Source: a virus. Taken from it: a stretch of DNA of 24,132 nt. The notes beneath the pieces were generated by a model. The model was not told the DNA's origin and ran no database searches. It was given only the letters and a program-made list of their open reading frames with translations. The position numbers were made by a program, and so were the translations under genes. This document shows positions 4,632-24,132 of this stretch, one piece after another. The DNA is taken from positions 1 through 24,132 of IMG/VR virus record IMGVR_UViG_3300044825_001897; one strand, written 5' to 3'. Each line of letters opens with the position of its first letter. Within the stretch, counting starts at the first letter, position 1.

Positions 4632-4643
4632 CGCGGCGCGCTC

Positions 4644-7966: not shown

Positions 7967-7994
7967 CGCCGGGCTACCGCCGCAGCACCGCACC

Positions 7995-8276: not shown

Positions 8277-8284
8277 GGCCCGCC

Positions 8285-8740
8285 ATGGCGCTGGCCGCAG
8301 CCCAGGTCGTCACCGTGCTGGCTGCGCGGCTCGATGCGCTGCCGGCCTACACCGGCCGCGTATTCACCAGCCGGCGCTGGCCGCTGGCCGATGCCGACCT
8401 GCCCGCCTGGCGCCTGTACGCCACCGACGAGGCCGTGGCCCGCGTGGCCATCGGCGCCAACGTCAACCGCCACCAGGTGGAGATCGCCGTGGTGGGGCAC
8501 GTGGCCGCCACGGCTGACCTGGACGACGCCCTCAACGCCATGGCCGCCGACGCCAGCGCCGCGCTGTTCGAGGTGACGGCGCCCACCACCATCGACGAGC
8601 TGGCGCCCTACGCGCTGCAGCTGCTGGGCATACGGCGCGCCGAATCTGCCGAGGGCGAGGCCGCGCTGGGCACCGTCACCCTCACCGTGCAGGCCGAGAT
8701 CTTCGTGGACGCGGCCCACCCTGAAACCATCCTCTCCTGA
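8285..8740 (+). CDS. Tail terminator / minor tail protein (gpU-like)
   Basis: This 151-residue protein starts MALAAAQVVTVLAARLDAL and contains RVFTSRRWPLADADLPAWRLY, HQVEIAVVGHVAA, DDALNAMAADASAALF and a final strand GTVTLTVQAEIFV. The alternation of a helix with four beta strands and the 'inputs a coordinate, decorates, returns a strand' pattern is that of phage tail terminators (lambda gpU, HK97 gp10-like), which stop tail-tube growth and bind the head connector. Position between head-tail joining protein and tail-tube protein agrees. No diagnostic residue is visible, so a gpZ-like completion protein cannot be excluded. Confidence 0.66.
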   Translation: MALAAAQVVTVLAARLDALPAYTGRVFTSRRWPLADADLPAWRLYATDEAVARVAIGANVNRHQVEIAVVGHVAATADLDDALNAMAADASAALFEVTAPTTIDELAPYALQLLGIRRAESAEGEAALGTVTLTVQAEIFVDAAHPETILS

Positions 8741-8757
8741 CATCGGAGCACACCACC

Positions 8758-9408: not shown

Positions 9409-9422
9409 CCGGGCGGCGGCCC

Positions 9423-9815
9423 ATGGACCTGCACGACATCCAGCGCCACGCGCTGGCGCAGCGCGAGGTGAGCGAGGAGGTCGAACCCGGCATCTTCGTC
9501 ACCCTGCGCATCCCCACCCGCCACGAGATCACCGTGGCCGGCCTGCGCGCCGGCGTGCACCGCGGCTACGATGCGGCCAGCCTGTCGGTGATGCAGCGCA
9601 CCCTGCTCGAGCAGGCCGTGGTGGCCTGGACGCAGACCGTGCGCCTGTCGCACCTGCTGGCCGCGCCCGATGCCGACGAGGCCGTGCCCTACACCCCCGG
9701 CGCCGTGCCGCTGCTGCTGGACGCCCAGCCCGCCTGGGCCGAGCGGCTGGCGCTGCGCCTAACCCAAGGCATTGCCGACCGTGACCGATCGAAAGACAGC
9801 GCCGCGGGAAACTGA
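9423..9815 (+). CDS. Tail assembly chaperone G
   Basis: This 130-residue protein (MDLHDIQRHALAQREVSEEV...) lies between the tail tube and tape measure genes, where siphophages encode the chaperone that coats the tape measure during tail assembly. The start at 9423 is 14 bp after the tube stop; longer readings of the same frame would run back through the tube gene. It ends at TGA 9813-9815, immediately after a GGGAAAC slippery heptamer, so most ribosomes make this short form and a minority shift into the T frame (see 9423-10054). The sequence is helical and Ala-rich. Position and the frameshift signal, rather than homology, carry the assignment. Confidence 0.82.
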   Translation: MDLHDIQRHALAQREVSEEVEPGIFVTLRIPTRHEITVAGLRAGVHRGYDAASLSVMQRTLLEQAVVAWTQTVRLSHLLAAPDADEAVPYTPGAVPLLLDAQPAWAERLALRLTQGIADRDRSKDSAAGN

Positions 9816-10054
9816 TCGCGCGCCTCGGCTGGCAGAAGTCCCAGGCCGAGGCGCAGAAATCAGGGCAGGAATGGATGCGTGCCGCCCTGGGCCAGGCACC
9901 GCCGCTGTGCGTGGAATCCGCCCGCGCCATGCATGCGTGGAACTGGTGCGGCGGCTGGCGGCCCGAGCTGTGGCCCATGTACGCCTCGCTGCACCCCGTG
10001 CCTGACTGGCACCTGCTGGCCGACCTGATGGAAGTGATCCGCGCCCGTGTCTGA
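9423..10054 (+). CDS. Tail assembly chaperone G-T, made by -1 frameshift
   Basis: A second open frame, -1 relative to G, runs from the slippery site to TGA 10052-10054. The product is G residues 1-130 followed by 80 T residues beginning LIARLGWQKSQAEAQKS, for 210 in total. The T part contains QEWMRAALGQAPPLC, AMHAWNWCGGWRPELWPMY and LHPVPDWHLLADLMEVIRARV, rich in Trp and Pro, compact and typical of C-terminal extensions in these chaperones. T has no convincing start of its own near its beginning, which supports fusion. Its stop overlaps the GTG start of the tape measure gene by GTGTCTGA. In lambda the T part recruits the tail tube while G coats the tape measure; the same roles are inferred. 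Confidence 0.82.
9806..9812 (+). promoter_or_regulatory. -1 ribosomal frameshift slippery site GGGAAAC
   Basis: In the G frame the bases read G GGA AAC followed at once by TGA, an ideal X XXY YYZ heptamer. Lambda uses GGGAAAG at the same point of its G-T pair. A -1 slip re-pairs the tRNAs with GGG AAA and enters the open T frame. The adjacent stop codon should slow the ribosome on the heptamer and help the slip. Confidence 0.85.
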
Positions 10055-12191
10055 CGCCAAGATCGTCATCACCGCCCAAGACCGCACCGCCGCGGCCTTT
10101 GCCAGCCTGCGCGGCAACGTGCGGGCGGCCGAGGCCAGCGTGTCCGGGCTCAATGCCGCGTTCGGCGGCATTGCGCGCATCGCCGGGCCGGCGTTTGCAG
10201 GCATCACGTTTACATCGTTCGTCAAGAGCGCCATTGACGGGCTGGACGCCCTGAACGACCTGAAAGACGCCACCGGCGCCAGCATCGAGAACCTTAGTGC
10301 GCTTGAGGACATCGCGGCTCGCACGGGCACCAGCTTTGACACAGTGACGCAGGCACTGATCCAGTTCAATAAAGTGCTTGGCGATCCATCGCTGGAACAG
10401 AAGAACATCATCAAGGCGTTGGGGCTGGACCTGGAGGAATTGCGAAGGCTTGATCCGGCGGAGGCTTTCAGGCGCACTGCGGTTGCCATCAATTCGTTTT
10501 CCGAATCCGGGGATCGGCAGCGTTCCGTCCAGATCCTGCTGAAGAAGAATCTTTCCGAGATTGCTCCGCTGCTCAAGGACGTTGCCGAGGGCGGCGAGCT
10601 GGTGGCAAAAGTTACCACGCAAGAAGCTGAAGCAGCGGAGGCATTCAATAAGGAAGTGTTCAAGCTGCAGAAGAATGTCGCCGATCTGGCCCGTTCATTG
10701 GCCAGTGAGTTGCTGCCCGCAATCAACGGAATTTTCAGCAACTCACGCGAGGGTGGGCTGGCAAAAGTTCTTGGGCTGGAAGATTTCGGGTCGCTGGCCA
10801 AGCAGGCCGTGGCTGCCTACAGGCTCGTCGGTTTGGCGCGTGAGCGGATCACGCCACTGTCGATTCTGGATAAAGATCCAACGAATGCCGGCGCACTGGC
10901 AGAGTTGGCGCGAATTGACGCGAAAGCCAAGGAAATCGCGGAGAGTTTCAAGAATGCGCGCACGGACTACTTGAAGATCGGTGAAAGCAAGGCCGGTGCG
11001 GGCCGTGGGTTTATCAATCCGCCGCTGATCAAGCCTGATCTGAACGTAGGTGTCGGTGGCGGCAAGAAAGAGCCCAAGGAAAAGCCCGAGACCATCGACC
11101 AGTCCACCAAGGCGCTGGAGTCCTACGTGGAGGCGCTGCGCGAGCGGGTGGAAGTCACCGCCGAGGCCACCGAGTTCGAGCGTGCGCTGTACGCCGTGAA
11201 CAAGAGCGGCGCGCTGGCTACCGACCGCGCGCTGGCCGAGCAGGCGCTCAGCCTGGCCTCGCTGCTGGACCAGCGCAAGGCCATCACCAAGGAGAGCGAG
11301 GACGCCACCAAAGCCGACGAGGAGCAGGCCCGCGCGCTGCGCGCGATCGACGCGCAGCTCGAGGAGTTCTCCGGCCGCACTGTGGAGGCCATGCGCCAGG
11401 CGCAGATCGCCCGGCTGCAAGCCCGCCAGGCCGCTGGCGAAGTGTTCAGCCCCGAGGAGCTGCGCCGCATCTACGCCGGCATCTACGGCCTGCGCGAGGC
11501 CACCGAGGACACGGTGGAACAGGCCGACAACGTGCTGCGCAAGTTCAGCGAGAACGTGCAGGACGCCTTCGGCGACACCGTGCTGGCCACGCTGGAGGGC
11601 AACTACAGCAACATCCTCAAGCTGTGGGGCAACCTCATCAAGCGGCTTGTGGCCGAGGCCATCGCCGCCGATCTCACGCGCGCGCTGTTCGGCGACCTGG
11701 CCAAGGGCAAGGGCAACAACACCAGCGAGCTGCTGGGTGCGCTGTTCAAGGCCGTGGGCGGCGCCTTCGGAGGTGGCGGCGGATCGGGCTACCCCGATGA
11801 CCTGCCCACCCGCGGCGGGCGCGCCGGCGGCGGGCGGGTGGATGCGGGCCGGCTGTACGAGGTGAACGAGGGCGCCGGCCCGGGCGAGCTGTTCCGCACC
11901 GGCGGGCGCGACTATCTGCTGCCCGCCAATGACGGGGTGATCATCCCCAACGGCGAGCGCGGCGCCGGCGGTGCGGCCACGCAGGCCGGCGCGGTCACGG
12001 TGCAGATCGTCAACAACGGCCGGCCGCTCGAGGTGCAGCAGACCAGCCAGGAATCCACCAGCGTGGGCACGCTCATCAAGGTGGTGACGCGCGAGCTCGC
12101 GCGCGACTTTGCCACCGGCGGCGCCGTGGCCAAGGCCGCCAGCGCCACCTTCGGGCTGCAGCGCGTGGCCGGTGCGCCGCGGCGGGGGTAG
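10047..12191 (+). CDS. Tail tape measure protein
   Basis: This 714-residue protein starts at a GTG overlapping the T stop; no ATG lies near. It sets tail length and is ejected with DNA. The N-terminus (SDAKIVITAQDRTAAAFASLRGNVRAAEASVSGL) is the usual tape-measure opening. Residues ~50-75 hold a hydrophobic segment, and the middle has heptad-rich coiled-coil stretches (e.g. TKALESYVEALRERVEV, ATKADEEQARALRAIDAQLEE). The C-terminus has the lambda gpH-like element DAFGDTVLATLEGNYSNILKLW, then a Gly-rich GGRAGGGRVDAGRLYEVNE and LFRTGGRDYLLPANDGVIIPN. The DNA from ~10210 to ~11060 is visibly less GC-rich and uses A/T-ending codons far more than both ends and all neighbours, indicating that the middle was exchanged. 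Confidence 0.9.
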   Translation: MSDAKIVITAQDRTAAAFASLRGNVRAAEASVSGLNAAFGGIARIAGPAFAGITFTSFVKSAIDGLDALNDLKDATGASIENLSALEDIAARTGTSFDTVTQALIQFNKVLGDPSLEQKNIIKALGLDLEELRRLDPAEAFRRTAVAINSFSESGDRQRSVQILLKKNLSEIAPLLKDVAEGGELVAKVTTQEAEAAEAFNKEVFKLQKNVADLARSLASELLPAINGIFSNSREGGLAKVLGLEDFGSLAKQAVAAYRLVGLARERITPLSILDKDPTNAGALAELARIDAKAKEIAESFKNARTDYLKIGESKAGAGRGFINPPLIKPDLNVGVGGGKKEPKEKPETIDQSTKALESYVEALRERVEVTAEATEFERALYAVNKSGALATDRALAEQALSLASLLDQRKAITKESEDATKADEEQARALRAIDAQLEEFSGRTVEAMRQAQIARLQARQAAGEVFSPEELRRIYAGIYGLREATEDTVEQADNVLRKFSENVQDAFGDTVLATLEGNYSNILKLWGNLIKRLVAEAIAADLTRALFGDLAKGKGNNTSELLGALFKAVGGAFGGGGGSGYPDDLPTRGGRAGGGRVDAGRLYEVNEGAGPGELFRTGGRDYLLPANDGVIIPNGERGAGGAATQAGAVTVQIVNNGRPLEVQQTSQESTSVGTLIKVVTRELARDFATGGAVAKAASATFGLQRVAGAPRRG

Positions 12192-12194
12192 GCC

Positions 12195-12596
12195 ATGACG
12201 CTGCCCGCCATCACCATGCCCGACAGCCTGCCCGGCTGGCTGTGCATGCCGCACGACGTGACCTACGGCACCCCTTACGCCGACGTGCCCATGTCCACGG
12301 GCGCCGCGCGCCGGCGCCGCGTGGCCAGCGGTGCCGCGCACCTGCTGGACGCCGCGCTCTCGCTCAGCGCCGCGCAGATGGCCGACTTTCACGCCTGGTT
12401 CGAGGACGACCTGCAGGCCGGCGCGCTGCCCTTTGCCGCGCGCGTGATGTCGCCGGCCTACGTGCTGCAGTGGTGGCATGCCAGGTTCGTGACGCCGCCG
12501 CAGCAGGTGCCCGACGCTGCCGTGGGCGGCGTGCGCTGGCTCGTCACCGCCCAGCTGCGCCTGCAGGGCGTGGCCAGCGACGAGGCCCCGGCATGA
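12195..12596 (+). CDS. Minor tail (tail-tip) protein
   Basis: This 133-residue protein lies 3 bp after the tape measure gene, the place of the lambda gpM-type tip proteins. It begins MTLPAITMPDSLPGWLCMP and has a core pattern ALSLSAAQMADFHAWFEDDL, then a Gly, an aromatic strand and a final VRWLVTAQLRLQG strand. The same pattern recurs in the first ~120 residues of the next protein (AALTFALGAAQCEQWMDWWRTVL ... GVRLISLEAHIRG), so the two seem to be related tip domains. Its stop overlaps the next start in ATGA. No enzyme motif is visible. Tail-tip role is inferred from position. Confidence 0.6.
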   Translation: MTLPAITMPDSLPGWLCMPHDVTYGTPYADVPMSTGAARRRRVASGAAHLLDAALSLSAAQMADFHAWFEDDLQAGALPFAARVMSPAYVLQWWHARFVTPPQQVPDAAVGGVRWLVTAQLRLQGVASDEAPA

Positions 12597-15097
12597 CGGC
12601 GCTGGCCTACCCCAGCGGCCTGCCCGTGCCGCAGACCTGCACCATCACCGCGCTGGAGCGCCGCGCGCTGACCGACCAGGCCGTGCAGGCCCCGCTGCAA
12701 GCCAGCGCGCGCCAGCTGGACTACGCCGCCCGCGCCGCGCTCACCTTCGCGCTGGGCGCGGCGCAGTGCGAGCAGTGGATGGACTGGTGGCGCACCGTGC
12801 TGGACTACGGCGGCGCCTGGTTCGACGCGCCGCACTGGCCCATGCCCTGGGGCACCGGCGCGGTGGTGATGTTCGCCACCGCCCCGCGGCTGCAGAACCT
12901 GGGCGGCGGCGTGCGCCTCATCAGCCTGGAGGCCCACATCCGCGGCGCCAGCGCCACGCCGGTGGACTATGCCGACGCGCTGGAGCTGGTGGCGCTGATG
13001 CGCGAGCAGCTGGCGCCCATGGGCGACACGCCGCAGGCCGCCACCGTGTACGCCGGCGGCGACGAGTTCTACGTGCGGCCCGACACCAGCCACGGCGCCA
13101 CCCGCGACGGCACCAGCTACGCCACCGCCTGGGGCGGGTTCAGCGAGATCGACTGGGGCGACCTGGGCCCCGACGCCACGCTGTGGGTATGCGGCGTGCA
13201 CGACGACGCGCGGCTCGACGTGGGCGCCTCGGGCAGCGAGGCGCTGCCGCTGGACATCCGGCTGGACCACCCCACCGACCCGGGGTCCATCTTCAACAGC
13301 CGCGTGATGACATCTGGCGAGTGGACGGCCAGCGGCGTCAATGGCGAGTACTACCTCGGCAGCATCGCATCGCCCGCGCTCATGTTCTACGAAGACGGCG
13401 CGCGCCTGCACGGCCCCAGCACCAGCAGCCGCACGCTGATGAACGTGACCGCCGTCGACGCGGTGGCCGACACCATCACCCACGCCACCGAGCGCCCGTT
13501 CCGCCTGGGCGACGTGGTGGTCATCTCCTACGAGGGCACGGCCGCCGCGCTGCCCGCCATCTCCACCGGCGGCACGCTGCTGCGGCATACCGCTTACTAC
13601 GCCATCCCGGTGTCGTCCTACGTCACCAAGCTGGCCACCAGCTACGCCAACGCCATCGCCGGCACGGCCATCGACATCACCGCCGCGGGCGACGGCAGCG
13701 TGTGGAAGGTGTTCCACCTGAACGAAGACACGCACCAGGATCCGATCATCGGCGCGCTCGAGCCCGGCCAATACCAATGGGACGGCGCGGCCCAGCGCAT
13801 CTACTACAAGCCCAGCACCGGCGCGCCGGCCGACCACGAGCTGCGCATCAGCGAGGAGCGCTACTCGGCCATCGGCGCGTGCATCTACGTCAACACCTGC
13901 ACCGACGTGCGCATCTTCGGCGGTGCCGAGTACGGCGGCCTGTTCGGCGTGGCCGCATCCGGCGCGGTTGGGCTGTGCCACACCAATGCCGTGCAGGTGG
14001 TCAGCAGCACGCGCGTCACGGTGGACGGGCTGGCCGTGGCCGGCTGCCGCAGCGGCGTGGCCTTCGTCGGTGGCTCGGGCCACGTGGCGCGCAACCTGCT
14101 GATCGAGGATGCCGGCTGGCACGCCGCCGGCGGTGAAAGCCCCGACATCACCGAGACCGACGTGCTGGTGGAGCGCTGCTGGTTCCGCGACATCGGCCAG
14201 CGGCACGACTTCGGCGACGTGCAGGGCGGGGTGGTCAACACCAACAGCGACAACAGCATCATCCGCCGCGTGCTGCTGCAGCGCGTGGGGCGCGACCATG
14301 CCTACGTCAACAACGGCGTCATCGTCATCGACACCAGCGACAACGCGCACGCCTACCGCTGCGTGATCGACGACTGCTACGGCGAAGCGTTCGAGATGAG
14401 CCTGGGCGCCAACACCGGCACCATGATCGACAGCAGTATCAGCAGCTGCATCGTGTGGCGGCAAAACCGCGAGCCAAGCCCCGTAAGCGGCGTGGTTGAG
14501 ATGTCGCGCGCCGGGTGTTTCCAGTTCCCCAACAACGACAGCGTGGGCGACAAGACGCACGACGGGTTCTCCATCTTCGGCTGCCTGCTGGTGGCCAGCC
14601 GGTTCGCGGTGTCCGACAACTGGCCCAACGAGCTGGGCGGCGTGCTGGCCATGCGCCCGCTCTACAGCACCGCGGCCATCACCGATGTAACGCTGCGGCG
14701 CACCGCCATCGTCGGCAACCTTACCGGCCCCATCTACGGCATCAACCCCCGCGGCGCCAGCGTGCCGGTGCCCACCTGGTCGGCCGACTGCAACCTGTAC
14801 GCCGGCCTGCCCGAGGGCGAAGACTTCTACCGCCTCAAGGTCACCAGCAGCCCGCCCGACACCGTGGTGACGGTAGCCGACGTCACCCCCACCACCGCCG
14901 GCGCGCTGGCCGGCACCTGGGTGGCCAGCACCGGCAACGACGCCAACAGCCGCGTGTGCGCCGCCCGCGCTGTGGACGTGGAGGCCGACCTGCCCGACGC
15001 GGTGCTCGAGTTCCTGCGCCAGGACGACCAGTACGACACGCTGGACGCGCCCACCGAGGCGCTGGTGGGCAGCTTCCCCTTCCGCCCCGGGCTCTGA
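12593..15097 (+). CDS. Tail-tip protein fused to a right-handed beta-helix (candidate tailspike)
   Basis: This 834-residue protein starts at the ATG overlapping the previous stop; its frame stays open further left but lacks a better start. Residues 1-~122 are a tail-tip domain resembling the preceding protein. From ~153 the sequence switches to YAGGDEFYVRPDTSHGATRDGTSYATAWGGFSEIDW, the typical entry of parallel beta-helix proteins. It continues with short repeating strands and Asn/Asp-rich turns: VSSTRVTVDGLAVAGCRSGV, RNLLIEDAGW, DVLVERCWFRDIG, NTNSDNSIIRRVLLQRVG, NAHAYRCVIDDCYGEAF, SSISSCIVWRQN. This is the pectate-lyase-like fold of many tailspikes and capsular depolymerases. It is inferred to be receptor-binding or polysaccharide-degrading and anchored to the tail tip by its N-terminus. 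Catalytic residues cannot be named from sequence alone. Confidence 0.75.
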   Translation: MTALAYPSGLPVPQTCTITALERRALTDQAVQAPLQASARQLDYAARAALTFALGAAQCEQWMDWWRTVLDYGGAWFDAPHWPMPWGTGAVVMFATAPRLQNLGGGVRLISLEAHIRGASATPVDYADALELVALMREQLAPMGDTPQAATVYAGGDEFYVRPDTSHGATRDGTSYATAWGGFSEIDWGDLGPDATLWVCGVHDDARLDVGASGSEALPLDIRLDHPTDPGSIFNSRVMTSGEWTASGVNGEYYLGSIASPALMFYEDGARLHGPSTSSRTLMNVTAVDAVADTITHATERPFRLGDVVVISYEGTAAALPAISTGGTLLRHTAYYAIPVSSYVTKLATSYANAIAGTAIDITAAGDGSVWKVFHLNEDTHQDPIIGALEPGQYQWDGAAQRIYYKPSTGAPADHELRISEERYSAIGACIYVNTCTDVRIFGGAEYGGLFGVAASGAVGLCHTNAVQVVSSTRVTVDGLAVAGCRSGVAFVGGSGHVARNLLIEDAGWHAAGGESPDITETDVLVERCWFRDIGQRHDFGDVQGGVVNTNSDNSIIRRVLLQRVGRDHAYVNNGVIVIDTSDNAHAYRCVIDDCYGEAFEMSLGANTGTMIDSSISSCIVWRQNREPSPVSGVVEMSRAGCFQFPNNDSVGDKTHDGFSIFGCLLVASRFAVSDNWPNELGGVLAMRPLYSTAAITDVTLRRTAIVGNLTGPIYGINPRGASVPVPTWSADCNLYAGLPEGEDFYRLKVTSSPPDTVVTVADVTPTTAGALAGTWVASTGNDANSRVCAARAVDVEADLPDAVLEFLRQDDQYDTLDAPTEALVGSFPFRPGL

Positions 15098-15112
15098 CGG
15101 ATAGCGCACGCC

Positions 15113-15664
15113 ATGCCCACCTATCAACCCGCCCTGCACGGCGCCAGCTACAGCGAGGCCTATGCCGAGGCAATGGCCGTGGCGCCGCAGCACCGGGCCA
15201 TGCTCAACACGCTGGAGATCGACCACGCCGCGCTGGCCGAGCCGCTGCGCGTGGTGCTCAATGACGTGGACATCACCGCCACGCTGGAGGCTGACGCGCC
15301 CAGCAACGCCGGCGAGCCGGTGCTGTTCACCGCCTGCCAGTTCGGCCTGCAACTGCCGCCCGAGAAAGACCAGACCGCCCGGCCCGAGGTGGCCGTGTGG
15401 GTGGACGGCGTGTCGTCGGCCCTGGCGCACGAGCTGGAGGCCGCCACCCTGTCGCTGGACCCCATCACCCTGTGCGTGCGGGTGTACGCCAGCGACGACT
15501 TCAGCGGCCCGGCCAACCTGCCGCCGCTGCGGCTTAACCTGCACGACGTGCGCGTGAGCGAGACGCGCGTCACCGCCCGCGCCGCGTATGCCGACCTTGG
15601 CAACACGCGCTTCCCGGCCAAGACGTTCACGCGCGCCGAATACCCGGGGCTGGCCTCGCAATGA
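15113..15664 (+). CDS. DUF1833-family tail protein (gpL position)
   Basis: This 183-residue protein contains HRAMLNTLEIDHAALAEPLRVVLNDVDITATLE, FTACQFGLQLPPEKDQTARPEVAVWVDGVSSALAHELE and a terminal RVTARAAYADLGNTRFPAKTFTRAEYPGL, the ordered features of DUF1833 proteins. These occur in siphophage tail-tip operons directly before an NlpC/P60 gene and are thought to be tip-complex structural subunits corresponding to lambda gpL. Its TGA overlaps the next start in ATGA. An FPxxxFtrxxyPGl tail like this one is common in gpL-type proteins that contact the hub. Lambda gpL's iron-sulfur cysteines are not evident: only two cysteines are present. Confidence 0.75.
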   Translation: MPTYQPALHGASYSEAYAEAMAVAPQHRAMLNTLEIDHAALAEPLRVVLNDVDITATLEADAPSNAGEPVLFTACQFGLQLPPEKDQTARPEVAVWVDGVSSALAHELEAATLSLDPITLCVRVYASDDFSGPANLPPLRLNLHDVRVSETRVTARAAYADLGNTRFPAKTFTRAEYPGLASQ

Positions 15665-16059
15665 CCGGCACCACCACCCCCACCACCACCGCGCACTGGG
15701 CCGCGCGCTACATCGGCGCGCCCTACGTCGCCGGTGCGGCCGGCCCGGCGGCGTTCGACTGCTGGGGCCTGGTGCGCGCCGTGGTGGCGCTGCGCCACGG
15801 CATCGACCTGGCCCACTCCGTGCGCCCCGGCGCGGCGCGCGCGCTGGGCTGGCGCCCGGTGCACGGGCCGGCGGCCGATGGCGACGTGGTGTCGCTGCGC
15901 GCGCCCGACGGGCAGCGCCACGTCGGCGTGGCGGTGCTGCGCGGCCGGCGCCTGGTGCTGCTGCACGCCATCCGCTCGCGCGGCGTGTGCTGCCAGCCGA
16001 TCGACGAGCTGCCGGCCTGCGGCTACGCCCACCTGCAACCCTGGAGGCCCGCGCCATGA
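15661..16059 (+). CDS. NlpC/P60-family tail-tip peptidase (gpK-like)
   Basis: This 132-residue protein has the papain-like Cys/His/His pattern of NlpC/P60 endopeptidases. Cys34 lies in AAFDCWGLVRAV; His87 in GQRHVGVAVL; His102 in LLHAIRSRGV. The enzyme cleaves peptidoglycan peptides and probably opens the cell wall during DNA injection. Lambda gpK combines an N-terminal JAMM domain with NlpC/P60; here only the NlpC/P60 part is present, as in many related phages. It lies between the DUF1833 and TipJ genes, with ATGA overlaps at both sides (15661 and 16056), implying coupled translation. Confidence 0.85.
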   Translation: MTGTTTPTTTAHWAARYIGAPYVAGAAGPAAFDCWGLVRAVVALRHGIDLAHSVRPGAARALGWRPVHGPAADGDVVSLRAPDGQRHVGVAVLRGRRLVLLHAIRSRGVCCQPIDELPACGYAHLQPWRPAP

Positions 16060-18824
16060 CCGGCGCCAGGCCGCCCCACGTGCCGCCCCATGTGCCGCAC
16101 CAGCGCGCCGCCGCGCCGCGCATGGCGTCGGTGGCGCTGGCGGCCAACGCGCTGGTGCCCACCGTGCTGTCGGCCGCGCGGCCGGTGGTGCCTGGCACGC
16201 GCATCGCCGACATCGTGGCCCCCACGCAGCCCGCCGTGATGGTGCGGCTGGACGGGCACTGGCTGCTGCGCGAGCATTGGCAGCACCCGCTGGCGCCGGG
16301 CCAGCACCTCGAGGTGCACCTGCTGCCGCAGGACGGCGACGCGCTGCGCCTGGTGCTGCAGGTGGCCGCCATGGTGGCGCTGGGGCCGTCGGGCTTCGGG
16401 CTCACGGGCGTGGAGCTGGCGGTGGCCACCATCGCGGCAAACCTGGCCATCAACCTGCTGCTGCCCGTCAAGCTGCCGCCGCCCACCGCCAGCACCGCGC
16501 CCGGCGAAAGCTACTCCACCAACCTGGGCGGCAACACCGCGGCCATCGACCAGCCCATCCCCGTGGTGTACGGCCGCCACCGCATCTACCCACCCTTCGC
16601 CGCGCAGCCCTACACCGAGTACGACAGCAACGACGACCAGTATTACCACGCCCTGCTGTGCCTGGGCATGGGGGAGTACGAGGTGGAGCAGCTGCAGCTC
16701 GACGACACGCAGCTGGATCACTTTGCCGACGTGCAATACACCGTGCTCGAGCCCGGCACCGCGCCCGCGCTGGTGCTGGCCAACGTGGTCACGGCGCCCG
16801 AGGTGTCGGGCCAGCCGCTCAAGTCGGGCCGGGTGGTGGGCGGCTTCGCGGCCTGCGCGCCGCGCCTGTCGGCGGCCAGCATCGGCATCGACATCGTGTG
16901 CGAGCGCGGCCTGGCCGATGCCACCGGCGCCAGCCTGGCCAACCGATCGGTGGAGCTGCGCATCGACACCCGCACCATCGACGACTGGGGCGTGGCCGCC
17001 ACGCCGTGGGCCGAGCTGGCCAGCGAGACCATCACCGCGGCCACCACCACCCCGGTGCGGCGCAGCTACACCTACACCATCGACCCGCCCGCGCGGGTGG
17101 AGGTGCGCGTGGTGCGCACCGATTCGCGCGACAGCAACCCGCAGGTGCTCAATGACTGCAGCTGGGCCGGCCTGCGCGCCTACCTGGACCAGGAGGCCAC
17201 CCTGGCGGCCAACGCCACGCATCTGGAGGTGAAGATGCGCGCCAGCGAGCAGCTCAACGGGCTGAGCCAGCGGCGCATCGCGGCCATCCTGCGCCGCAAG
17301 GTGCGCAGCTGGCACCCCAGCACCGGCTGGAGCGCATCGGCCGCCTTCACCCGCAGCATCGCCTGGGCGCTGGCCGACAAGTGGAGCAACACCGAATACG
17401 GCGACGGCCTGCCCGACGAGCGCATCGACCTGCAGACCCTGTATGACCTGGACCAGACCTGGACCGACCGGCAAGACCACCTGGACATCGTTTTCGACAG
17501 CGCCACCGACAGCGACCAGGCCGACCAGATCATCGCCCGCGCCGGCCGCGCGCGGCCCTTCTGGCGCAACGGCGTGCGCACCGTCAGCCGCGACGAGGCG
17601 CAGGCCCTGCCCGTCACGGCCTACACCAGCCGCGACATCACGCCCGGCAGCGCCGGCCTGCAATACCTGTGCGATGCCACGGCCGTGCCCGACGCAGTGG
17701 TGGTGGAATACCTGGACCTGCGCAGCTGGGACTGGCGCAGCGTGACCTGCAACGCGCCCGGCGTTACATCGCCCACGCGCCCGCTGTACCTGCGCCTGCC
17801 CGGCGTCACCGGCAGCAAGCAGGCCGAGCGCGAGGGCCTGTACGAAGCCGCGGCGCGCTACTACCGCCGCGTGCTGGGCAGCTGGCAGACCGAGCTGCAG
17901 GGCCTGCTGCCGGCCTTCGGCAGCGCGGTGGTGTTCTCGCCCGCGCTGCAGGGCTGGGGCGCGGCGGGCGACGTGGTGGGCTGGGACGAGGGCACGCTCA
18001 CGCTCACGCTCAGCGAGCCGCCTACCTGGACGCCGGCGGCCACGCACTACATCAGCCTGGTGCGCGACGACGGCAGCCTGCACAGCGCCATCGAGGCCAC
18101 CGAGGGTGCCACCGCCTACGAGGCCGTACTCGACAGCGCGCCCGATTTCACGCCCAGCACCGACGACGCGCGGCGCGAGCGCACGCGCTACCACTTCGGC
18201 CAGGCCAGCGAGCACCGCCGCACGATGCTGGTGCTGGGCATCGAGCCGCAGGAGATCCGCGAAGACGGCGCCATGCTGGTGCAGATGACCGGCGTGCTCG
18301 AGGACGACCGCGTGCACGAGGCCGACGCCGAGCTGCTGCCCGAGGAGGGCGAGGAGCAGGACCCCATCGACAGCCCCACCACCGGAGTGCCCGACGACGG
18401 CGAAAGCTACATCGTGCGCATCCTGCCGCGGCTTATCGAGTTCGACTCCAGCGACGTGCTGGGCGAGATCCGCTTCCGCGCCGACGGCTCGCTGTACGTG
18501 GAGACCGCCGCGGGCGTGGAGCTGGTCGACCAGTGGCTGCTGGGCCAGCCCTTCACGTCGCCCGAGCCGGGCAGCCTGTTCGAGATCCTGGTCACCGAGG
18601 TGGTGGCGGGCGATCTGCAGACCGGCCCGAGTGACGACACCGATACCTGGCTCAGCCTGTCCAGCCAGCGCAGCTGGGTGGTCGGCCGGCCGGGCTGGAC
18701 GCCCACGCCGGGCACTGACCTGACCATCGACACCACGCTGGGCGTAAGCATCCGCACCGCCGCCGACGGCCTGCTGCAGGGCAGCGCCAACTTCCGGTTC
18801 TACTTCTTCTACTCGGGCGCGTGA
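16056..18824 (+). CDS. Host specificity / central tail tip protein J (TipJ)
   Basis: This 922-residue protein starts at an ATG overlapping the peptidase stop. Residues ~1-140 include a small beta domain (TRIADIVAPTQPAVMVRLDGHWL, LEVHLLPQDGD) and a hydrophobic, helix-rich stretch (~100-139, ending AANLAINLLLPVK), resembling the gpI-like part often fused to J. The J body follows: NLGGNTAAIDQPIPVVYG, YYHALLCLGMGEYEVEQLQLDDTQ, RRSYTYTIDPPARVEVRVVRTD, KWSNTEYGDGLPDERID, FDSATDSDQADQIIARAGRARPFW (hub domains), then C-terminal beta-rich sequence. It forms the trimeric tip that closes the tube and contacts the receptor. The last ~150 residues are the likely host-range region. Lambda J is 1132 residues, so this one has a shorter C-terminal fibre part. 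Confidence 0.87.
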   Translation: MTGARPPHVPPHVPHQRAAAPRMASVALAANALVPTVLSAARPVVPGTRIADIVAPTQPAVMVRLDGHWLLREHWQHPLAPGQHLEVHLLPQDGDALRLVLQVAAMVALGPSGFGLTGVELAVATIAANLAINLLLPVKLPPPTASTAPGESYSTNLGGNTAAIDQPIPVVYGRHRIYPPFAAQPYTEYDSNDDQYYHALLCLGMGEYEVEQLQLDDTQLDHFADVQYTVLEPGTAPALVLANVVTAPEVSGQPLKSGRVVGGFAACAPRLSAASIGIDIVCERGLADATGASLANRSVELRIDTRTIDDWGVAATPWAELASETITAATTTPVRRSYTYTIDPPARVEVRVVRTDSRDSNPQVLNDCSWAGLRAYLDQEATLAANATHLEVKMRASEQLNGLSQRRIAAILRRKVRSWHPSTGWSASAAFTRSIAWALADKWSNTEYGDGLPDERIDLQTLYDLDQTWTDRQDHLDIVFDSATDSDQADQIIARAGRARPFWRNGVRTVSRDEAQALPVTAYTSRDITPGSAGLQYLCDATAVPDAVVVEYLDLRSWDWRSVTCNAPGVTSPTRPLYLRLPGVTGSKQAEREGLYEAAARYYRRVLGSWQTELQGLLPAFGSAVVFSPALQGWGAAGDVVGWDEGTLTLTLSEPPTWTPAATHYISLVRDDGSLHSAIEATEGATAYEAVLDSAPDFTPSTDDARRERTRYHFGQASEHRRTMLVLGIEPQEIREDGAMLVQMTGVLEDDRVHEADAELLPEEGEEQDPIDSPTTGVPDDGESYIVRILPRLIEFDSSDVLGEIRFRADGSLYVETAAGVELVDQWLLGQPFTSPEPGSLFEILVTEVVAGDLQTGPSDDTDTWLSLSSQRSWVVGRPGWTPTPGTDLTIDTTLGVSIRTAADGLLQGSANFRFYFFYSGA

Positions 18825-19156
18825 TGGTGGCCGACATGACGCCTGACCGCAGCCCACCCATGCGCACCACCCAGCGCCTGGTCGTCACCGACCCCACGGC
18901 CGCCGTCGAGGAACTGCTGAGAGAGAACCGCGCCCTCAGCGACGCGCTGGCCGAGCTGCAGGTCCGCATGCCCAGCGATGCGGACCTGGAGTTCCTTCAC
19001 CGCCTGCGCATCGAGCGCGAGCGCACCACCTGGGCCTGGGCCACGGCGCGCCGCTGGGTGGCCTGGGGTGTGCCCATCTGCAGCGCGTTGGCCGCTGCGT
19101 TCTACCACGTCATCAAATGGCTAGCGGACAATTTCCAGTTCAGGCCGCACCCATGA
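18824..19156 (+). CDS. Small membrane protein with coiled coil
   Basis: This 110-residue protein is coupled to the J stop (TGATG); a GTG at 18821 is an alternative start. Residues ~20-70 are a charged amphipathic helix (TAAVEELLRENRALSDALAELQ, then DLEFLHRLRIERERTTW). Residues ~76-102 (RRWVAWGVPICSALAAAFYHVIKWL) form one hydrophobic segment near the C-terminus. I recognise no family with a known function. Location after J and before two further membrane-protein genes suggests a lysis, superinfection-exclusion or host-modification role, but nothing in the sequence decides this. The TGA overlaps the next ATG. Confidence 0.65.
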   Translation: MVADMTPDRSPPMRTTQRLVVTDPTAAVEELLRENRALSDALAELQVRMPSDADLEFLHRLRIERERTTWAWATARRWVAWGVPICSALAAAFYHVIKWLADNFQFRPHP

Positions 19157-19617
19157 AAGCCGCCTTTGTGTGGATCTGGCGCCGCGAGTGGCTCGGGTGG
19201 CTGATCACGCTGCCCATGCTGTTGGTGCTGTACGGCTGGGCCACCGATCGCACGCCGCCGCTGATGGTGGCCCACGCCGTGGCCACGCCGGCGCGCGCGG
19301 GCGAGGAAACGCTCGTCACCGGCAGCGCCATCCGTGATCTGGGGCGCGGCTGCTCGGCCCAGCGCAGCCGGGCGTTTCTCGATTCGCGCGGGGTGCGGCA
19401 CGACTACGGCACCGCGGCCATCGTCAGCAACGCCGCGCTGCGCGAGGAGGCCCGCATCATGGGCGACAGCGAGGTGCGCTCGTCGGTGGTGCTGCCCGAG
19501 GCCGCCGCGCCGGGCGTGGGGATGATGATTCTCAGCATCGACTACCGCTGCAACCCCCTGCACTACATCGTGCCGATCAACTACACCCTGATGGTGCCCG
19601 TGGAGGTGCTGCCATGA
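19153..19617 (+). CDS. Single-pass membrane protein of unknown function
   Basis: This 154-residue protein starts at an ATG overlapping the previous stop. Residues ~11-30 (REWLGWLITLPMLLVLYGWA) are an N-terminal signal anchor with basic residues before it, so the rest is probably periplasmic. That part has two cysteines, Cys67 in LGRGCSAQR and Cys133 in DYRCNPLHY, which could pair in the periplasm. It does not look like an Rz spanin or an endolysin, and has no catalytic motif I know. The gene is embedded in a three-gene membrane cassette at the end of the late operon, with an ATGA overlap at each end. Confidence 0.65.
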   Translation: MKAAFVWIWRREWLGWLITLPMLLVLYGWATDRTPPLMVAHAVATPARAGEETLVTGSAIRDLGRGCSAQRSRAFLDSRGVRHDYGTAAIVSNAALREEARIMGDSEVRSSVVLPEAAAPGVGMMILSIDYRCNPLHYIVPINYTLMVPVEVLP

Positions 19618-19835
19618 CCCGCCCCGCCGCCTTCTACGCTGGCGCCGTCACCGCGGCGCTGCTGCCGCTGGTGTACCTGGTGGTGTGGCGCGTGCTGGCC
19701 GGGCCATTCTCGGCCGAGGTGCAGAGCATGGTGATTGGCGCCGTGGTCAGTGGCGTGCTGTCGAGCATCACCGGCTTCTGGCTGGGCAGCAGCGCCAGCA
19801 GCCAGCGCAAAGACCAGCCCGGCTCAACGGATTAG
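19614..19835 (+). CDS. Holin-like two-helix membrane protein
   Basis: This 73-residue protein has two hydrophobic segments: residues ~7-29 (FYAGAVTAALLPLVYLVVWRVLA) and ~38-59 (MVIGAVVSGVLSSITGFWLGSS). A charged, soluble tail follows (QRKDQPGSTD). Small size, two helices and position at the end of the structural operon are holin-like. Holins permeabilise the inner membrane to release endolysin. No endolysin gene lies next to it: the following gene is an oppositely oriented transposase whose stop overlaps this stop (the TAG at 19833-19835 and the complementary TTA at 19832-19834). Function is inferred only from size and topology. Confidence 0.55.
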   Translation: MTRPAAFYAGAVTAALLPLVYLVVWRVLAGPFSAEVQSMVIGAVVSGVLSSITGFWLGSSASSQRKDQPGSTD

Positions 19836-19844
19836 TGTGTGGAA
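19826..19844 (+). repeat. Left copy of an imperfect 19-bp inverted repeat
   Basis: The bases AACGGATTAGTGTGTGGAA match, in 17 of 19 positions, the reverse complement of 22321-22339 (AACGGATTAACGTGTGGAA); only GT versus AC in the middle differ. This copy overlaps the convergent stops of the holin and transposase genes. The pair brackets the transposase plus four small genes (about 2.5 kb). Terminal repeats of a transposable unit are one reading. No flanking target duplication is evident at the outer edges. Confidence 0.4.
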
Positions 19845-21247
19845 TCTGACGCATGACCGCTAGCTTCATCCGTGTGGAATCGTCTGTGGCAGTTCTGGCA
19901 GAGAAGCATCGGCTTTCGATGTTCGCCAGGGACCACAGCAGGGGTCAGGTGGACGAACAGCGAGGCCGGTTCAAACGCTCCGCTGCACGACTGGCACCGT
20001 CCATTCCCTGCCCTGATGAGTTGGGCGCGCTGCAGTGCTTGTTCACCACGGGTCATGATGGGTGTCTCCTTTGGTGGTTGTATTCGGGGCTTGGAGCCGA
20101 ACAGCAACCGTGCCCGCAGCACCTCGAAGCTGTATCCCCGACCGGCACGGTTGATCGTCTTTGCCACCCCATTCAATGCCTCGGTGTAGGCGTTGCTGAT
20201 GGGGTGGTCGAAGTACGCGGTGATCTCAGGGCGCCAGTTCCTCATGGCCGTGAGCAGCACCTTGAAGTCGCCCTTGAGCGCCTGGGGCACGTCGCCCTTG
20301 AAGGCGTCATAGGCAGCCAGGGCCTGGGGCTTCTTCATGGCGTAGATGCCGTAGAAGGCTTCCTTGAGCCGGTAGGCGTCGGCCAGCTCGGGCTCGTTGT
20401 CCAGCCACATCCGCAGGTTGAACGCTTGCTTCTCGGTCAGCGTCGACTCGCGCTTGTTCAGGATGGCCTTGGATCGCATCCAGTCGCGCCGGACCTCCTT
20501 GGTGCGGGTCTTGGCCACCCGGATGCGCACGCGCTCCATGCAGTAGTTCGCCATCCGGACGACGTGGAACTTGTCGATCACGACCGGCACGCCCGGGAAG
20601 ATCGTCCCGGCCACGTCGCGGTACGGGCGCCACATGTCGATGGCCACGCCCTCGACGTGCTTTCGCTCCTTGTGCCGGTGCAGCCAGGTGGTCAGGGTGC
20701 CCTTGTCCCGGTCGGCCAGCATCTCGATGGGGCGCCGGCCGCCGATGTCGGTGATGACGCAGCGCATCTTCCCGTCGATCTGCGTCTCGTCGATGCCCAG
20801 CCAGGCCGGCAGGGAAGGCTTGTAGGCGGCGTCCAATGTGGCGATGTACTCGCCGGCCAGGTTGCGCACCGTCTTGTCGTCACAACCAACGTGGTCGGCG
20901 ATGCTGGTGAAGGTGTCCCGCAGGCACTGCTCCTTGATGTACTCGGCGCACCTGGCAGTCATGCGGCGGTCCTCCTGGATGCCCGCCAGGGGCTGCAGGA
21001 ACGTCTCACCGCACTCTCGGCACTTGTACCGCTGCACGCGGGCCAGGATGCGGGTTGCGTGGCCCCTGATGGGGCTGTCGCGGTAGATGGTGTCCTTGGT
21101 GCCGTGCCGGTACAGACGGTCCAGCACACCGCATTTCTGGCAGGAGGTGGGCTTGACGGTGTACTCAGCTTCAAGCTCGTACTCACGGTCTTCGAGGCGC
21201 TTGGCAAGGACGGTCCACCCGGGGAGGTCGAGGATGTCAGTGGTCAT
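19832..21247 (-). CDS. ISL3-family transposase with C-terminal HNH-like zinc domain
   Basis: This 471-residue protein reads leftwards. The N-terminus is an ISL3 zinc finger: Cys36-x2-Cys39, His48, Cys76-x2-Cys79 (SCQKC ... YKCRECG). A helix-turn-helix-like stretch follows (~110-135, TSIADHVGCDDKTVRNL). The DDE core has Asp153 (WLGIDETQ), conserved Asp204 (AIDMWRPY), Asp225 (VVIDKFHVVR) and Glu356 (SNAYTEALNGVAK), so catalysis looks intact. ISL3 enzymes usually end about here, but this one has ~65 more residues with Cys418-x2-Cys421, His433 (FVHLTP), Cys450-x2-Cys453-His454-x3-His458 (LLCQNCHRRFH), an HNH-nuclease-like zinc motif. The gene is packed against its neighbours: 24 bp from the upstream small gene and stop-to-stop overlap with the holin gene, leaving no room for IS ends at the gene itself. 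Confidence 0.87.
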   Translation of the reverse strand: MTTDILDLPGWTVLAKRLEDREYELEAEYTVKPTSCQKCGVLDRLYRHGTKDTIYRDSPIRGHATRILARVQRYKCRECGETFLQPLAGIQEDRRMTARCAEYIKEQCLRDTFTSIADHVGCDDKTVRNLAGEYIATLDAAYKPSLPAWLGIDETQIDGKMRCVITDIGGRRPIEMLADRDKGTLTTWLHRHKERKHVEGVAIDMWRPYRDVAGTIFPGVPVVIDKFHVVRMANYCMERVRIRVAKTRTKEVRRDWMRSKAILNKRESTLTEKQAFNLRMWLDNEPELADAYRLKEAFYGIYAMKKPQALAAYDAFKGDVPQALKGDFKVLLTAMRNWRPEITAYFDHPISNAYTEALNGVAKTINRAGRGYSFEVLRARLLFGSKPRIQPPKETPIMTRGEQALQRAQLIRAGNGRCQSCSGAFEPASLFVHLTPAVVPGEHRKPMLLCQNCHRRFHTDEASGHASDSTH

Positions 21248-21271: not shown

Positions 21272-21508
21272 TCACGCCCCGTGGTACTGCATGGAGTCGT
21301 TCCACGCCGCCCAGCGGTCGTGGCAGGGCTGACAGACGCCCTTGTATCCACCCTCGCTGTCGCCCTCCATGACTGGACCGCAGTACCAGGGCACCGAGTT
21401 GCTGTGCCGTCCCAAGACGCCGCACATGTTGCATTCGTAGGCTCCGCCGCCCCACAGGTGGACCACCAAGTAGGAGTTGCCCTCACGGTCAACGCAATCG
21501 GTGTGCAT
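21272..21508 (-). CDS. Small zinc-ribbon protein, HNH-like
   Basis: This 78-residue protein has Cys26-x2-Cys29 (YECNMCG), Cys43 (WYCGP) and Cys59-x2-Cys62-His63 (GVCQPCHDRW), a zinc-ribbon or HNH-like knuckle layout. The last motif resembles the CQNCH motif of the neighbouring transposase's extra domain. The N-terminus (MHTDCVDREGNSYLVVHLWG) is a beta hairpin-like segment. The ATG at 21508 is coupled to the upstream stop (TGAGCCATG). Its role is unknown; small zinc proteins of this type are common in phage accessory operons. It could bind nucleic acid, but no catalytic HNH histidine pair is clear. Confidence 0.65.
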   Translation of the reverse strand: MHTDCVDREGNSYLVVHLWGGGAYECNMCGVLGRHSNSVPWYCGPVMEGDSEGGYKGVCQPCHDRWAAWNDSMQYHGA

Positions 21509-22340: not shown

Positions 22341-22445
22341 TCAGACTATAACCGGCAATGAAGGAATCCACATGGAAATCCGGAGAGCCCGGCAGGCTTC
22401 GCGGATGCGCTGCTCGAGCTTGGGTTGGGCGGTGTTAGTGGACAT
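22341..22445 (-). CDS. Possible gene remnant or small ORF (34 residues)
   Basis: On the - strand an ATG at 22445 opens a 34-codon frame: MSTNTAQPKLEQRIREACRAL, then RISMWIPSLPVIV. The first 22 residues look like the start of a normal soluble helical protein. The rest is in AT-richer DNA and unlike it, and the frame stops right at the right copy of the 19-bp inverted repeat. That suggests a gene start truncated by an insertion. There is no clear ribosome site, so it may be untranslated. This entry also covers the 180-bp gap between the coding genes at 22310 and 22491. Confidence 0.3.
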   Translation of the reverse strand: MSTNTAQPKLEQRIREACRALRISMWIPSLPVIV

Positions 22446-22483
22446 GGCCGCGTTATCGGACAGGTGGTGTCGCAGAATTCACG

Positions 22484-22921
22484 TTCGGCCTCACGGGCGC
22501 ATGTTCGCGTCGATGTCCAGGCGCACGCCGCTGAGGCTGCACGTCGGGATGCTCTGGCAAATCGAGCGCACGCGCTCGCGCACCTCCGGGTCGGCGTGGT
22601 CCTCTGCCAGCCAGCGCAGCCGCAGTGCGTCGGCGCGCATCTCGCGATTCATGTCGCGCATGTCGTGCCACTCGGCCGCGTCGGCGCGACGGGCCTCGCT
22701 CATCATGCCCACGGCGTTGCGCAGGCTCACCAGCTCGCGCTCGCGGTCCAGCCAGCGGCGCAGCACGGCGCGCAGGTTATTCCAGAACGTGCCCACGTTC
22801 AGGCGGCGGGCGTCGGTGTCGTATGTGTTCATCGGTTCTCTCGCTTCGGCATCAGGCCGAACTGGCGGGTCAACCGGACCCGCTACGGCGTCCCGCCTAC
22901 GCGGGCCGGTTACCCTGGTCG
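22484..22921 (+). mobile_element. Integron-type gene cassette 1 (438 bp, gene inverted)
   Basis: The unit begins inside the core GTTCGGCC (22483-22490) and ends with the G of the next core at 22921. Its attC starts with GGCCGAAC (22855-22862), the exact complement of its own first core. That is the rule for cassettes, because the circular form joins the two. Nearly all of the unit is one gene on the opposite strand plus its 22-bp leader and the attC. No attC is visible left of 22483, so the left junction may be an attI-like or secondary insertion site. Confidence 0.75.
22491..22832 (-). CDS. Hypothetical helical protein in cassette 1
   Basis: This 113-residue protein starts at ATG 22832 after GAGAGAACCG. 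It is strongly charged and helical: NVGTFWNNLRAVLRRWLDRERELVSLRN, then ARRADAAEWHDMRDMNREM, ALRLRWLAEDHADPEVRERVRSICQSIPT and VRLDIDANMRP. The RLRWLAEDHADPEVR segment resembles short hypothetical proteins common in phages. No membrane segment, zinc motif or catalytic motif is seen. The gene stop at 22491-22493 directly follows the cassette's left core and its start is 22 bp from the attC, so the gene runs opposite to the attC direction and can be transcribed together with the leftward genes. Confidence 0.7.
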   Translation of the reverse strand: MNTYDTDARRLNVGTFWNNLRAVLRRWLDRERELVSLRNAVGMMSEARRADAAEWHDMRDMNREMRADALRLRWLAEDHADPEVRERVRSICQSIPTCSLSGVRLDIDANMRP

Positions 22922-22928
22922 TTATGGC
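22855..22928 (+). repeat. attC recombination site 1 (integron type)
   Basis: The order of boxes is R'' GGCCGAAC (22855-22862), 5-nt spacer, L'' GGTCAACCGG (22868-22877), loop, L' CCGGTTACC (22906-22914), 6-nt spacer, R' GTTATGGC (22921-22928). L'' pairs with L' except for one extra C at 22871, the extrahelical base that marks attC polarity. The stem continues as CCCGC/GCGGG with an unpaired A at 22878. Spacers of 5 and 6 nt match classical attC sites. Folding of the - (bottom) strand would be the recombining form. Confidence 0.82.
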
Positions 22929-23413
22929 GCAGCCTCATGCCAGCAGTACGCGCACGCCAAGCCATACGCCAGCGACGACCAGCAGTACAACTGCGCCGCC
23001 CAGGCCGCCAATCAAGCTGCCGCCAAGCACTGCGCCAAACCAGCCGTCGCTAAGAGTGCGTTCTCGGCGCTCCCACACCACGCCAGCCACCATAGCCGCA
23101 AAGATCACAAGAACGGCAAACTTCGCCACGCCAAGCGCGCTATCTGTCATCTGCGCGGGGTGTAGTCTGTCAATGCAACCAGCGTACTCGCGCATCTCCG
23201 TAACGGTCGCCTGGTCGTGCTGGTATCCACGCACATAGCCCATACACGCCTTGCGTTGTGCCTCTTGCGCCGCAGCATTTGCCGCCGCTGCATTTGCGGT
23301 TGCCGCTGCGCTAATAACAATTGATGTGCCCACTATTTACCTCGTTTCTGCAACAGCGCCATAACATTTCGCTGAACCGGAGCCACGCAAGCGTGGCCCG
23401 GTTAGCTCAAACG
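22922..23413 (+). mobile_element. Integron-type gene cassette 2 (492 bp, gene inverted)
   Basis: It starts inside GTTATGGC (22921-22928) and its attC opens with GCCATAAC (23358-23365), again the exact complement of its own left core. One gene in the - direction fills it, with the gene stop 13 bp from the left end and its GTG start 24 bp from the attC. Together with cassette 1 it forms a tandem array. The next unit begins at 23414 and carries the methyltransferase; its far end is outside the window. Confidence 0.78.
22935..23333 (-). CDS. Two-helix membrane protein in cassette 2
   Basis: This 132-residue protein starts at GTG 23333, with GAGGT seven bases upstream and a stop codon just before in frame. 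Residues 1-27 are Ala/Asn/Gln-rich (ISAAATANAAAANAAAQEAQ). Residues 28-65 contain Cys30 and Cys53 (KACMGYVRGYQHD, REYAGCIDRLHP). Two hydrophobic segments follow, ~66-87 (LGVAKFAVLVIFAAMVAGVVW) and ~99-131 (Gly-rich FGAVLGGSLIGGLGG, then VVLLVVAGVWLGVRVLL), with ERRERTLSDG between them. The function is unknown. Short membrane proteins are frequent in integron cassettes and in phage early regions, so context does not decide. A holin-like or superinfection role would be a guess. Confidence 0.68.
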   Translation of the reverse strand: MGTSIVISAAATANAAAANAAAQEAQRKACMGYVRGYQHDQATVTEMREYAGCIDRLHPAQMTDSALGVAKFAVLVIFAAMVAGVVWERRERTLSDGWFGAVLGGSLIGGLGGAVVLLVVAGVWLGVRVLLA

Positions 23414-23419
23414 TTAGCC
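23358..23419 (+). repeat. attC recombination site 2 (integron type)
   Basis: R'' GCCATAAC (23358-23365), spacer ATTTC, L'' GCTGAACC (23371-23378), stem GCCACGC/GCGTGGC with an AA loop, L' GGTTAGC (23400-23406), spacer TCAAAC, R' GTTAGCC (23413-23419). L'' carries one extra G (23374) relative to L'. Box order, 5/6-nt spacers and the TAACATTTCGCTGAA...TTAGCTCAAACGTTAG wording closely resemble the classical aadA-type attC. It has the same polarity as attC 1. The stop codon of the methyltransferase lies inside its L'-R' spacer. Confidence 0.87.
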
Positions 23420-24132
23420 GTCAACAAGTCACCCTGTGCAAGCCTCGCAGCAATGGCCTGGCACTGTGACTCGCGCTTTTCGATCAAGATCGCCAAGCGC
23501 CCAGTCTTGCGCGCCACGGCGCCAGTGGTGCCGCTGCCTGCGAAGCAGTCGATCACCAGGCCACCGGGCGGCACGCTGTACTGCAGCAGCGGAGCCACGA
23601 TGTCCTCGGGCTTCTGCGTTTCGTTCACCGCGTAGCCGTGGCAGCTCGCCGCGAAGATCACCGAAGTCATGATCCGCTGGCCTTCAATCGTGGCCTCTGC
23701 GCCCACCGTTCCAAGGTGCGGTGTCTTGCCGCGCCGGATGCGCTGCTTTCGTTGTTCCTCGCCGTGCCTCGGCACCTCGCGGTGCAGCGCGTTCCAGTCG
23801 CCCCGGTAGAAGTGCAGCGCAAACTCATGCACGCGCCGGAAGCGGTCATCGTGAAAGCTGCTGCCGTTGTGCTTCTCCCACACGATGTCTTGCGCCAGCT
23901 TCCAATCGGCCAGGTCGGCGCGCTTGTCCAAGAACATGCGCATCGAGCCAAAGCACCACATCTGCGGCGCCACCAGCGCAGCCACGGCGGGCCAGCCATC
24001 CGGCCACACATCCCAGTCAAGCGAGGTTTCGCCATAGGGCGGGTCAGTCACCACCGCGTCGGCCTTGGGCAGCATCGGCAGCAGCGCCAGCGCGTCACCG
24101 TGGTACAGCGTCACCGCCTCGTCTTCGTAGTA
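23407..24132 (-). CDS. DNA (adenine-N6 or cytosine-N4) methyltransferase, 5' partial
   Basis: The frame is open to the right window edge (YYEDEAVTLYHGD...), so the GTG at 24114 is probably internal and the start lies outside. In the visible 241 residues the catalytic motif DPPY is at 30-33 (VVTDPPYGETSLDWD) and the SAM-binding motif is near the C-terminus (VIDCFAGSGTTGAVA). This order, catalytic motif first, is that of beta-class N6A/N4C methyltransferases, with the target-recognition region between (~80-160). It transfers a methyl group from S-adenosylmethionine to DNA. No restriction enzyme is visible, so a phage anti-restriction or regulatory methylase is plausible. The last codons and stop (23407-23409) run into attC 2, so the gene crosses the cassette boundary at 23413/23414. 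Confidence 0.87.
   Translation of the reverse strand, partial: YYEDEAVTLYHGDALALLPMLPKADAVVTDPPYGETSLDWDVWPDGWPAVAALVAPQMWCFGSMRMFLDKRADLADWKLAQDIVWEKHNGSSFHDDRFRRVHEFALHFYRGDWNALHREVPRHGEEQRKQRIRRGKTPHLGTVGAEATIEGQRIMTSVIFAASCHGYAVNETQKPEDIVAPLLQYSVPPGGLVIDCFAGSGTTGAVARKTGRLAILIEKRESQCQAIAARLAQGDLLTANV

Follow-up and report, generated by a model that had tools for sequence, protein, structure and literature searches.

Integrons are systems of gene capture in which the integrase IntI cuts the folded bottom strand of an attC site at the G^TT point and joins the circular cassettes to attI or to another attC. They are usually seen as bacterial tools that are occasionally picked up by phages. Clusters of attC in phages, some of them with DNA methyltransferases, and their recombination by IntI1 have been published in a survey that drew on NCBI phage genomes (Qi et al. 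2023, PMC9892861).

Here we analysed a metagenomic virus record, a fragment of 24,132 bases (the window, meaning the whole stretch of DNA), in which a first-pass annotation had described two tandem integron-type cassettes with inverted genes beside a phage late operon. We consider it very probable that, as a whole, the locus is the attI end of a phage-resident integron, whose inverted cassettes have been shuffled by an integrase within an accessory operon. The features are as follows.

1..19835 (+), late operon of a lambda-like tailed phage (PHROG matches, open reading frames), converging on the operon of the array
19832..21247 (-), ISL3-type transposase whose C-terminal part is HNH-like, situated where the late operon ends
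21272..21508 (-), gene of a 78-aa protein
22374..22445 (-), intI relic, the first 24 codons of a phage integron integrase (MSTNTAQPKLEQRIREACRALRIS); homology stops afterwards
22447..22489 (+), attI, GTTATCGGACAGGTGGTGTCGCAGAATTCAC then core G^TTCGGCC at 22483, aligned to L241 and to attI of intI-bearing phages
22484..22921 (+), cassette 1, bounded by G^TT points, gene inverted
22491..22832 (-), cassette 1 gene, 113-aa protein, stop codon 8 nt from the core
22855..22928 (+), attC1, model R1 24.8 bits, E 2e-4 (22856-22927)
22922..23413 (+), cassette 2, delimited by its cores, gene inverted
22935..23333 (-), cassette 2 gene, 132-aa small membrane-type protein (open reading frame)
23358..23419 (+), attC2, model R1 32.6 bits, E 2e-6 (23359-23419)
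23407..24114 (-), cassette 3 gene, N6/N4 DNA methyltransferase (MTase; PF01555, E 1e-26; phrog_67)

The late operon encodes portal, S49 head protease, major head, tape measure, minor tail and tip J proteins (PHROG), and is faced by leftward genes: the ISL3-type transposase, small genes, the genes of both reported units and the MTase. A relative of the transposase in another contig (L009) lies directly after an MTase gene, with attC absent between them. Relatives of the 78-aa gene adjoin an attC in L131 and intI in L267, so this gene may be a former cassette stranded outside attI.

The attC sites

Both attC sites were recovered, on the strand first reported, by a covariance model (R1) that was trained on 24 bacterial attC only, from plasmid integrons and from chromosomal arrays adjoining intI, and was run on the window with filters off. 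The E-values are rough, since model calibration was shortened; the runner-up in the window, a partial match within a coding region, reached 15.6 bits, and the two sites are more than chance resemblances. A position-weight attC scanner gave zero matches scoring at least 20 on 204 kb of reversed sequence. Folded as DNA, the bottom strands had z-scores of -2.4 for attC1 and -5.4 for attC2.

The order of elements is R''-L''-L'-R', with unpaired bases. Core pairing is symmetric and does not by itself fix polarity; the polarity of the window sites was therefore read from the unpaired base and the L/R asymmetry by comparison with arrays adjoining intI. In those arrays of known polarity the unpaired base lies in the top-strand left arm, and it does so in both window sites, which thus have the same polarity and the extrahelical base in L'' that had been described for them.

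The left core is GTTCGGCC (22483-22490); attC1 has R'' GGCCGAAC (22855-22862) and R' GTTATGGC (22921-22928), and attC2 has R'' GCCATAAC (23358-23365) and R' GTTAGCC (23413-23419). The complementarity of each R'' to the left core of its own unit, first given as 8 nt, is real and longer, at 9 nt (GTTCGGCCT) and 10 nt (GTTATGGCGC). Across the 24 kb of the window GTTATGGC, GCCATAAC and GGCCGAAC are unique, whereas GTTCGGCC has two copies. Of 334 viral cassettes, 63% had own-core matches of at least 9 nt, against 6% for random pairs. Together with attI, described below, the attC model and the cores support cassettes of the integron type, bounded by G^TT.

In some attC of other viral contigs (L005 and L151 of G001) the variable loop contains an ATG with a sequence resembling a ribosome-binding site; the following gene therefore seems to begin within the attC hairpin.

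An attI site and the start of an integrase gene

The stretch 22415-22491 is 85% identical in DNA (E 3e-16) to L241, a phage sequence with intact intI, and within it 22447-22489 shows homology to the attI of phages that carry intI. Many phage integrons share the motif GTTAYSCGACA..GGTGTCG..GAATTnAA^GTT. Read on the minus strand from the ATG at 22445, MSTNTAQPKLEQRIREACRALRIS matches the start of the G139 integrase, MSANTTQPKLEDQIRNACRVRHYS. At the protein level this match is weak (tblastn E 0.002), and the claim of an intI relic rests on the DNA match. The search for an intact integron integrase gene, proposed in the first-pass annotation, found in the window only this relic of 24 codons beside attI. 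With at least two attC and intact intI absent nearby, the window, itself a fragment, corresponds to the definition of a CALIN.

Fragments of intI were also found in G208 and at the end of the array in G150. The latter (G150:13674-13745, L214) is a 24-codon internal piece of phage IntI, 87.5% identical, directly after the last attC, and represents a second intI relic, differing from that of the window.

Cassettes shared between phages

The first-pass annotation had suggested looking for precise excision at 22483, 22921 and 23413. Cassette 1 recurs in phage G016 with 89% identity over 22481-22923 and none outside, that is, between both G^TT points. It is the first cassette in the window array and the last, at the far end, in the G016 array, and the major head proteins belong to phrog_371 in the window and phrog_10 in G016. 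The MTase protein is 98% identical between the window and G001, and homology at the DNA level breaks off close to the core at 23413.

The reading frame of the MTase crosses this core and stops inside attC2. Cassette 3 begins at 23414, and neither its attC nor the right end of the array falls within the window; the third unit that had been predicted is thus right in kind, as the MTase is a cassette in relatives. The gene is flanked by attC on both sides in seven of them (L002, L003, L004, L005, L013, L142, L143), and the attC that comes after this MTase gene differs from phage to phage. Near other relatives of the MTase, the 113-aa and the 132-aa proteins (L006, L008-L012, L014-L016, L020, L021) the R1 search found no attC, and the L016 relative of the 132-aa protein lies outside any cassette. 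Since these relatives sit in phages without nearby attC, the window cassettes look like captured phage genes.

These comparisons bear on a reading in which the hairpins are fixed intergenic elements, for example terminators, that resemble attC by chance. The hairpins do fold well and are placed between operon genes, as such elements would be. This reading, to which we give almost no credence, is refuted by the matches to the attC model, by the varying attC after the MTase and by the cassette-exact homology.

Inverted arrays in other viral contigs

Our survey of viral contigs used a single attC-style pattern, which matched in at least 120 stretches; with R1, hundreds of attC were scored on viral contigs. 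In the related contigs, arrays of about 5-25 attC lie at the junction of an accessory operon and a convergent late operon. This layout is shared by G001, G016, G150, G158, G223, G139, G218 and others, and phage genes were verified by PHROGs in the window, G001, G016, G139 and G218. The contigs related to the window phage by the tip protein are too short to include an empty site. Two further contigs, G186 (L228, L229) and G188 (L230, L231), each have two arrays of opposite polarity flanking a central region.

A chimeric assembly of phage and bacterial integron DNA might be suspected in a fragmentary metagenomic virus record. We rejected it as extremely improbable, because the junction recurs in many independent contigs, and the same architecture is found in a prophage of cultured Thiobacillus and in the circular genome MW202573.

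The inversion of genes relative to attC is confirmed in the window. With a codon model trained outside the arrays, 294 viral cassettes were called inverted and 1 canonical, and 104 of those 294 genes end at the TAA within the core. This model, trained on phage genes, is unreliable on bacterial arrays, which it misjudged; we therefore added a strand-paired test, in which the longest open reading frame of each strand was compared with Pfam (threshold 1e-4), and the 294:1 count stands only together with it. Among 97 viral cassettes, 18 families matched on the inverted strand and 0 on the other, one of the matches being IntI, whereas among 60 bacterial cassettes 28 families were read toward attC and 3 were inverted. 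The longest open reading frame alone, a noisy measure of orientation in GC-rich phage DNA, gave a weaker bias in viral cassettes (236 inverted versus 128), and 8 inverted versus 72 in bacterial ones. The window and, as a rule, the viral arrays thus depart from the usual integron arrangement of genes that read toward attC and are expressed from the attI side.

Most of the recognizable genes in viral cassettes encode DNA methyltransferases (eight N6/N4, six C5, MT-A70, Dam, D12); others encode the restriction alleviation protein Lar, a Mom-like protein, RNA ligase and exonucleases. The bacterial cassettes in the same Pfam test yielded BrnT, RelE, ParE, TIR, SEFIR, HEPN and AbiGi. The shuffled viral genes are probably early accessory functions, largely for DNA modification and anti-restriction. 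Judging from the names of these genes, many of the cassette enzymes would shield phage DNA from host restriction, and the anti-restriction benefit is deduced from those names.

Integron integrases of phages

Inverted arrays have intact intI at their attI end in G139, G218, G226 and the prophage of Thiobacillus denitrificans RG, and in dozens of viral contigs an intact phage IntI is the last gene after inverted cassettes. G139 also encodes portal, major head and tape measure proteins and a phage integrase; in the T. denitrificans prophage the order is antirepressor, MTase cassette, intI, phage integrase and then host gltX. The phage IntI retain the IntI-specific region and the catalytic residues, which we assigned on general features of the family. 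The T. denitrificans RG genome (G021) contains a second integron integrase gene, in two frames and apparently frameshifted (C27:118439-119400, L376).

Relatives of IntI are encoded in 298 viral stretches. Among the best 80 of these, attC lie upstream of intI in about 50, with a single polarity in all but one, and the called cassette genes are about 110 inverted versus 7. Intact intI above the cut-off was present in only 3 of the 98 array-bearing contigs scanned, many of which are fragments.

In a tree with bacterial neighbours the phage IntI form one side of a branch found in every bootstrap tree (100/100). The groups compared were drawn after the first tree: the Thiobacillus prophage and one G332 IntI were counted as phage, and four rows from viral contigs that cluster with bacteria were left out, one of which (L300) still looks inverted. 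The phage IntI lie outside the IntI1 group. Class 1 IntI1 had fallen inside the phage clade in the first tree; this placement vanished once the bacterial IntI nearest to the phage ones were added, and we therefore do not claim an origin of IntI1 from phages. A bacterial integrase in the sample (L348, G527 C13) is 74% identical to class 1 IntI1, the nearest in this sample outside class 1.

Alternatively, the cassettes might now be exchanged solely by homologous recombination between attC repeats, free of integrase, and the arrays would be integron fossils. The relic in the window, the fragments in G150 and G208 and the absence of intI from most array contigs all fit such a history. However, general recombination within attC would blur both the own-core pairs, which are matched over 9-12 nt, and the G^TT ends of shared cassettes, and intact IntI with catalytic residues is widespread in relatives. 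We regard integrase-free exchange as unlikely, though it is the rival that deserves most weight.

A single capture of a bacterial chromosomal or mobile array, by attG-type insertion or illegitimate recombination and with incidental inversion, would have precedents in Vibrio, P1 and Shewanella phages (PMC9892861), and the same model fits phage and bacterial attC. Inversion, however, is present in nearly all viral cassettes and absent as a rule in bacterial ones, the phage IntI form a separate clade, attI and the intI relic are in place in the window, and the position against the late operon is conserved in many phages. We find this explanation quite improbable.

Discussion

The first-pass annotation had left two alternatives: capture of phage accessory genes, or insertion of an integron array into the phage. 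The window's own attI and truncated intI, the relatives with intact intI similarly placed, and a pool of cassettes inverted as a rule favour an array resident in the phage. This reading is more specific and contains the first alternative.

From the sites and their polarity, attI, the intI relic, the exact cassette boundaries, the inverted genes, the phage context and the integrase clade, all read from sequence, we infer the enzyme activity, the source of the enzyme in phages without intI, recombination, expression and benefit proposed here. The window comprises attI and then at least three cassettes (113-aa protein, membrane protein, DNA methyltransferase), in a phage that has lost intI except its first 24 codons. 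By analogy with known integrons, an integron integrase would cut attC, folded from the bottom strand, at G^TT, both to release cassettes and to insert them. In relatives the phage itself encodes this enzyme, as the last gene of the same operon; in the window phage it may be supplied by IntI of the host or of a co-resident phage, or, alternatively, the array may be frozen. As gene direction opposes attC polarity, the inverted genes would not be read from a promoter on the attI side as in bacteria. The cassettes are more plausibly co-transcribed in the accessory operon, which runs toward attI and intI and converges with the late operon. In this inverted layout intI comes last, the core can supply a stop codon, and attC stands at the 5' side of the gene.

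More broadly, we lean towards the view that tailed phages own a distinct integron lineage with its own IntI clade, and with an inverted pool, the whole array being expressed from a phage operon in which intI is last, with the core TAA usable as a stop and attC 5' of the gene. Such a pool would be a shared, reshuffled anti-restriction store, separated from the bacterial pool by the orientation of its genes. Integrons would then be a standing part of many tailed phages, which look to recombine counter-restriction genes in a contest with hosts that have toxin-antitoxin and defence genes in integrons of their own. This suggests a route for site-specific swapping of anti-defence genes between phages, a source of cassette genesis, and a reason why some attC arrays seem wrongly oriented.

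Phage attC clusters were known. Searches of journal papers, largely open-access ones, turned up neither inverted phage arrays nor a phage IntI clade, and the clade and the systematically inverted cassettes, rich in anti-restriction genes, are apparently new. Systematic inversion and a phage integrase clade are likewise unreported in the accessible text of Qi et al. 2023 (PMC9892861) on CALINs and integrons in phages. One of the cases of that study, MW202573 (L372 2069-3738), has attC on the - strand and genes on the + strand beside a convergent late operon, and so belongs to the inverted class; another, TJE1, has the canonical orientation, unlike the window class. In the phage collection only 9 records match phage IntI, and the recognizable ones are of class 1, Vibrio and Shewanella (host) types. 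Genes that define mobile class 1 integrons (IntI1, 3' conserved segment) are absent from the window. Insertions of cassettes into genomes at attG share the G^TT target point, whereas the left boundary in the window is a full attI with an adjoining intI start.

Bacterial integrons, both sedentary chromosomal and mobile class 1, resemble the phage systems in having an integrase of the IntI family with its IntI-specific region, attI beside the start of intI, the structure of attC, matched cassette cores and the canonical polarity of attC relative to intI. In contrast to them, the phage cassette genes are inverted relative to attC and read toward intI, the functions recognizable among them concern DNA modification and anti-restriction, in place of toxin-antitoxin or defence, and the phage IntI form a clade of their own.
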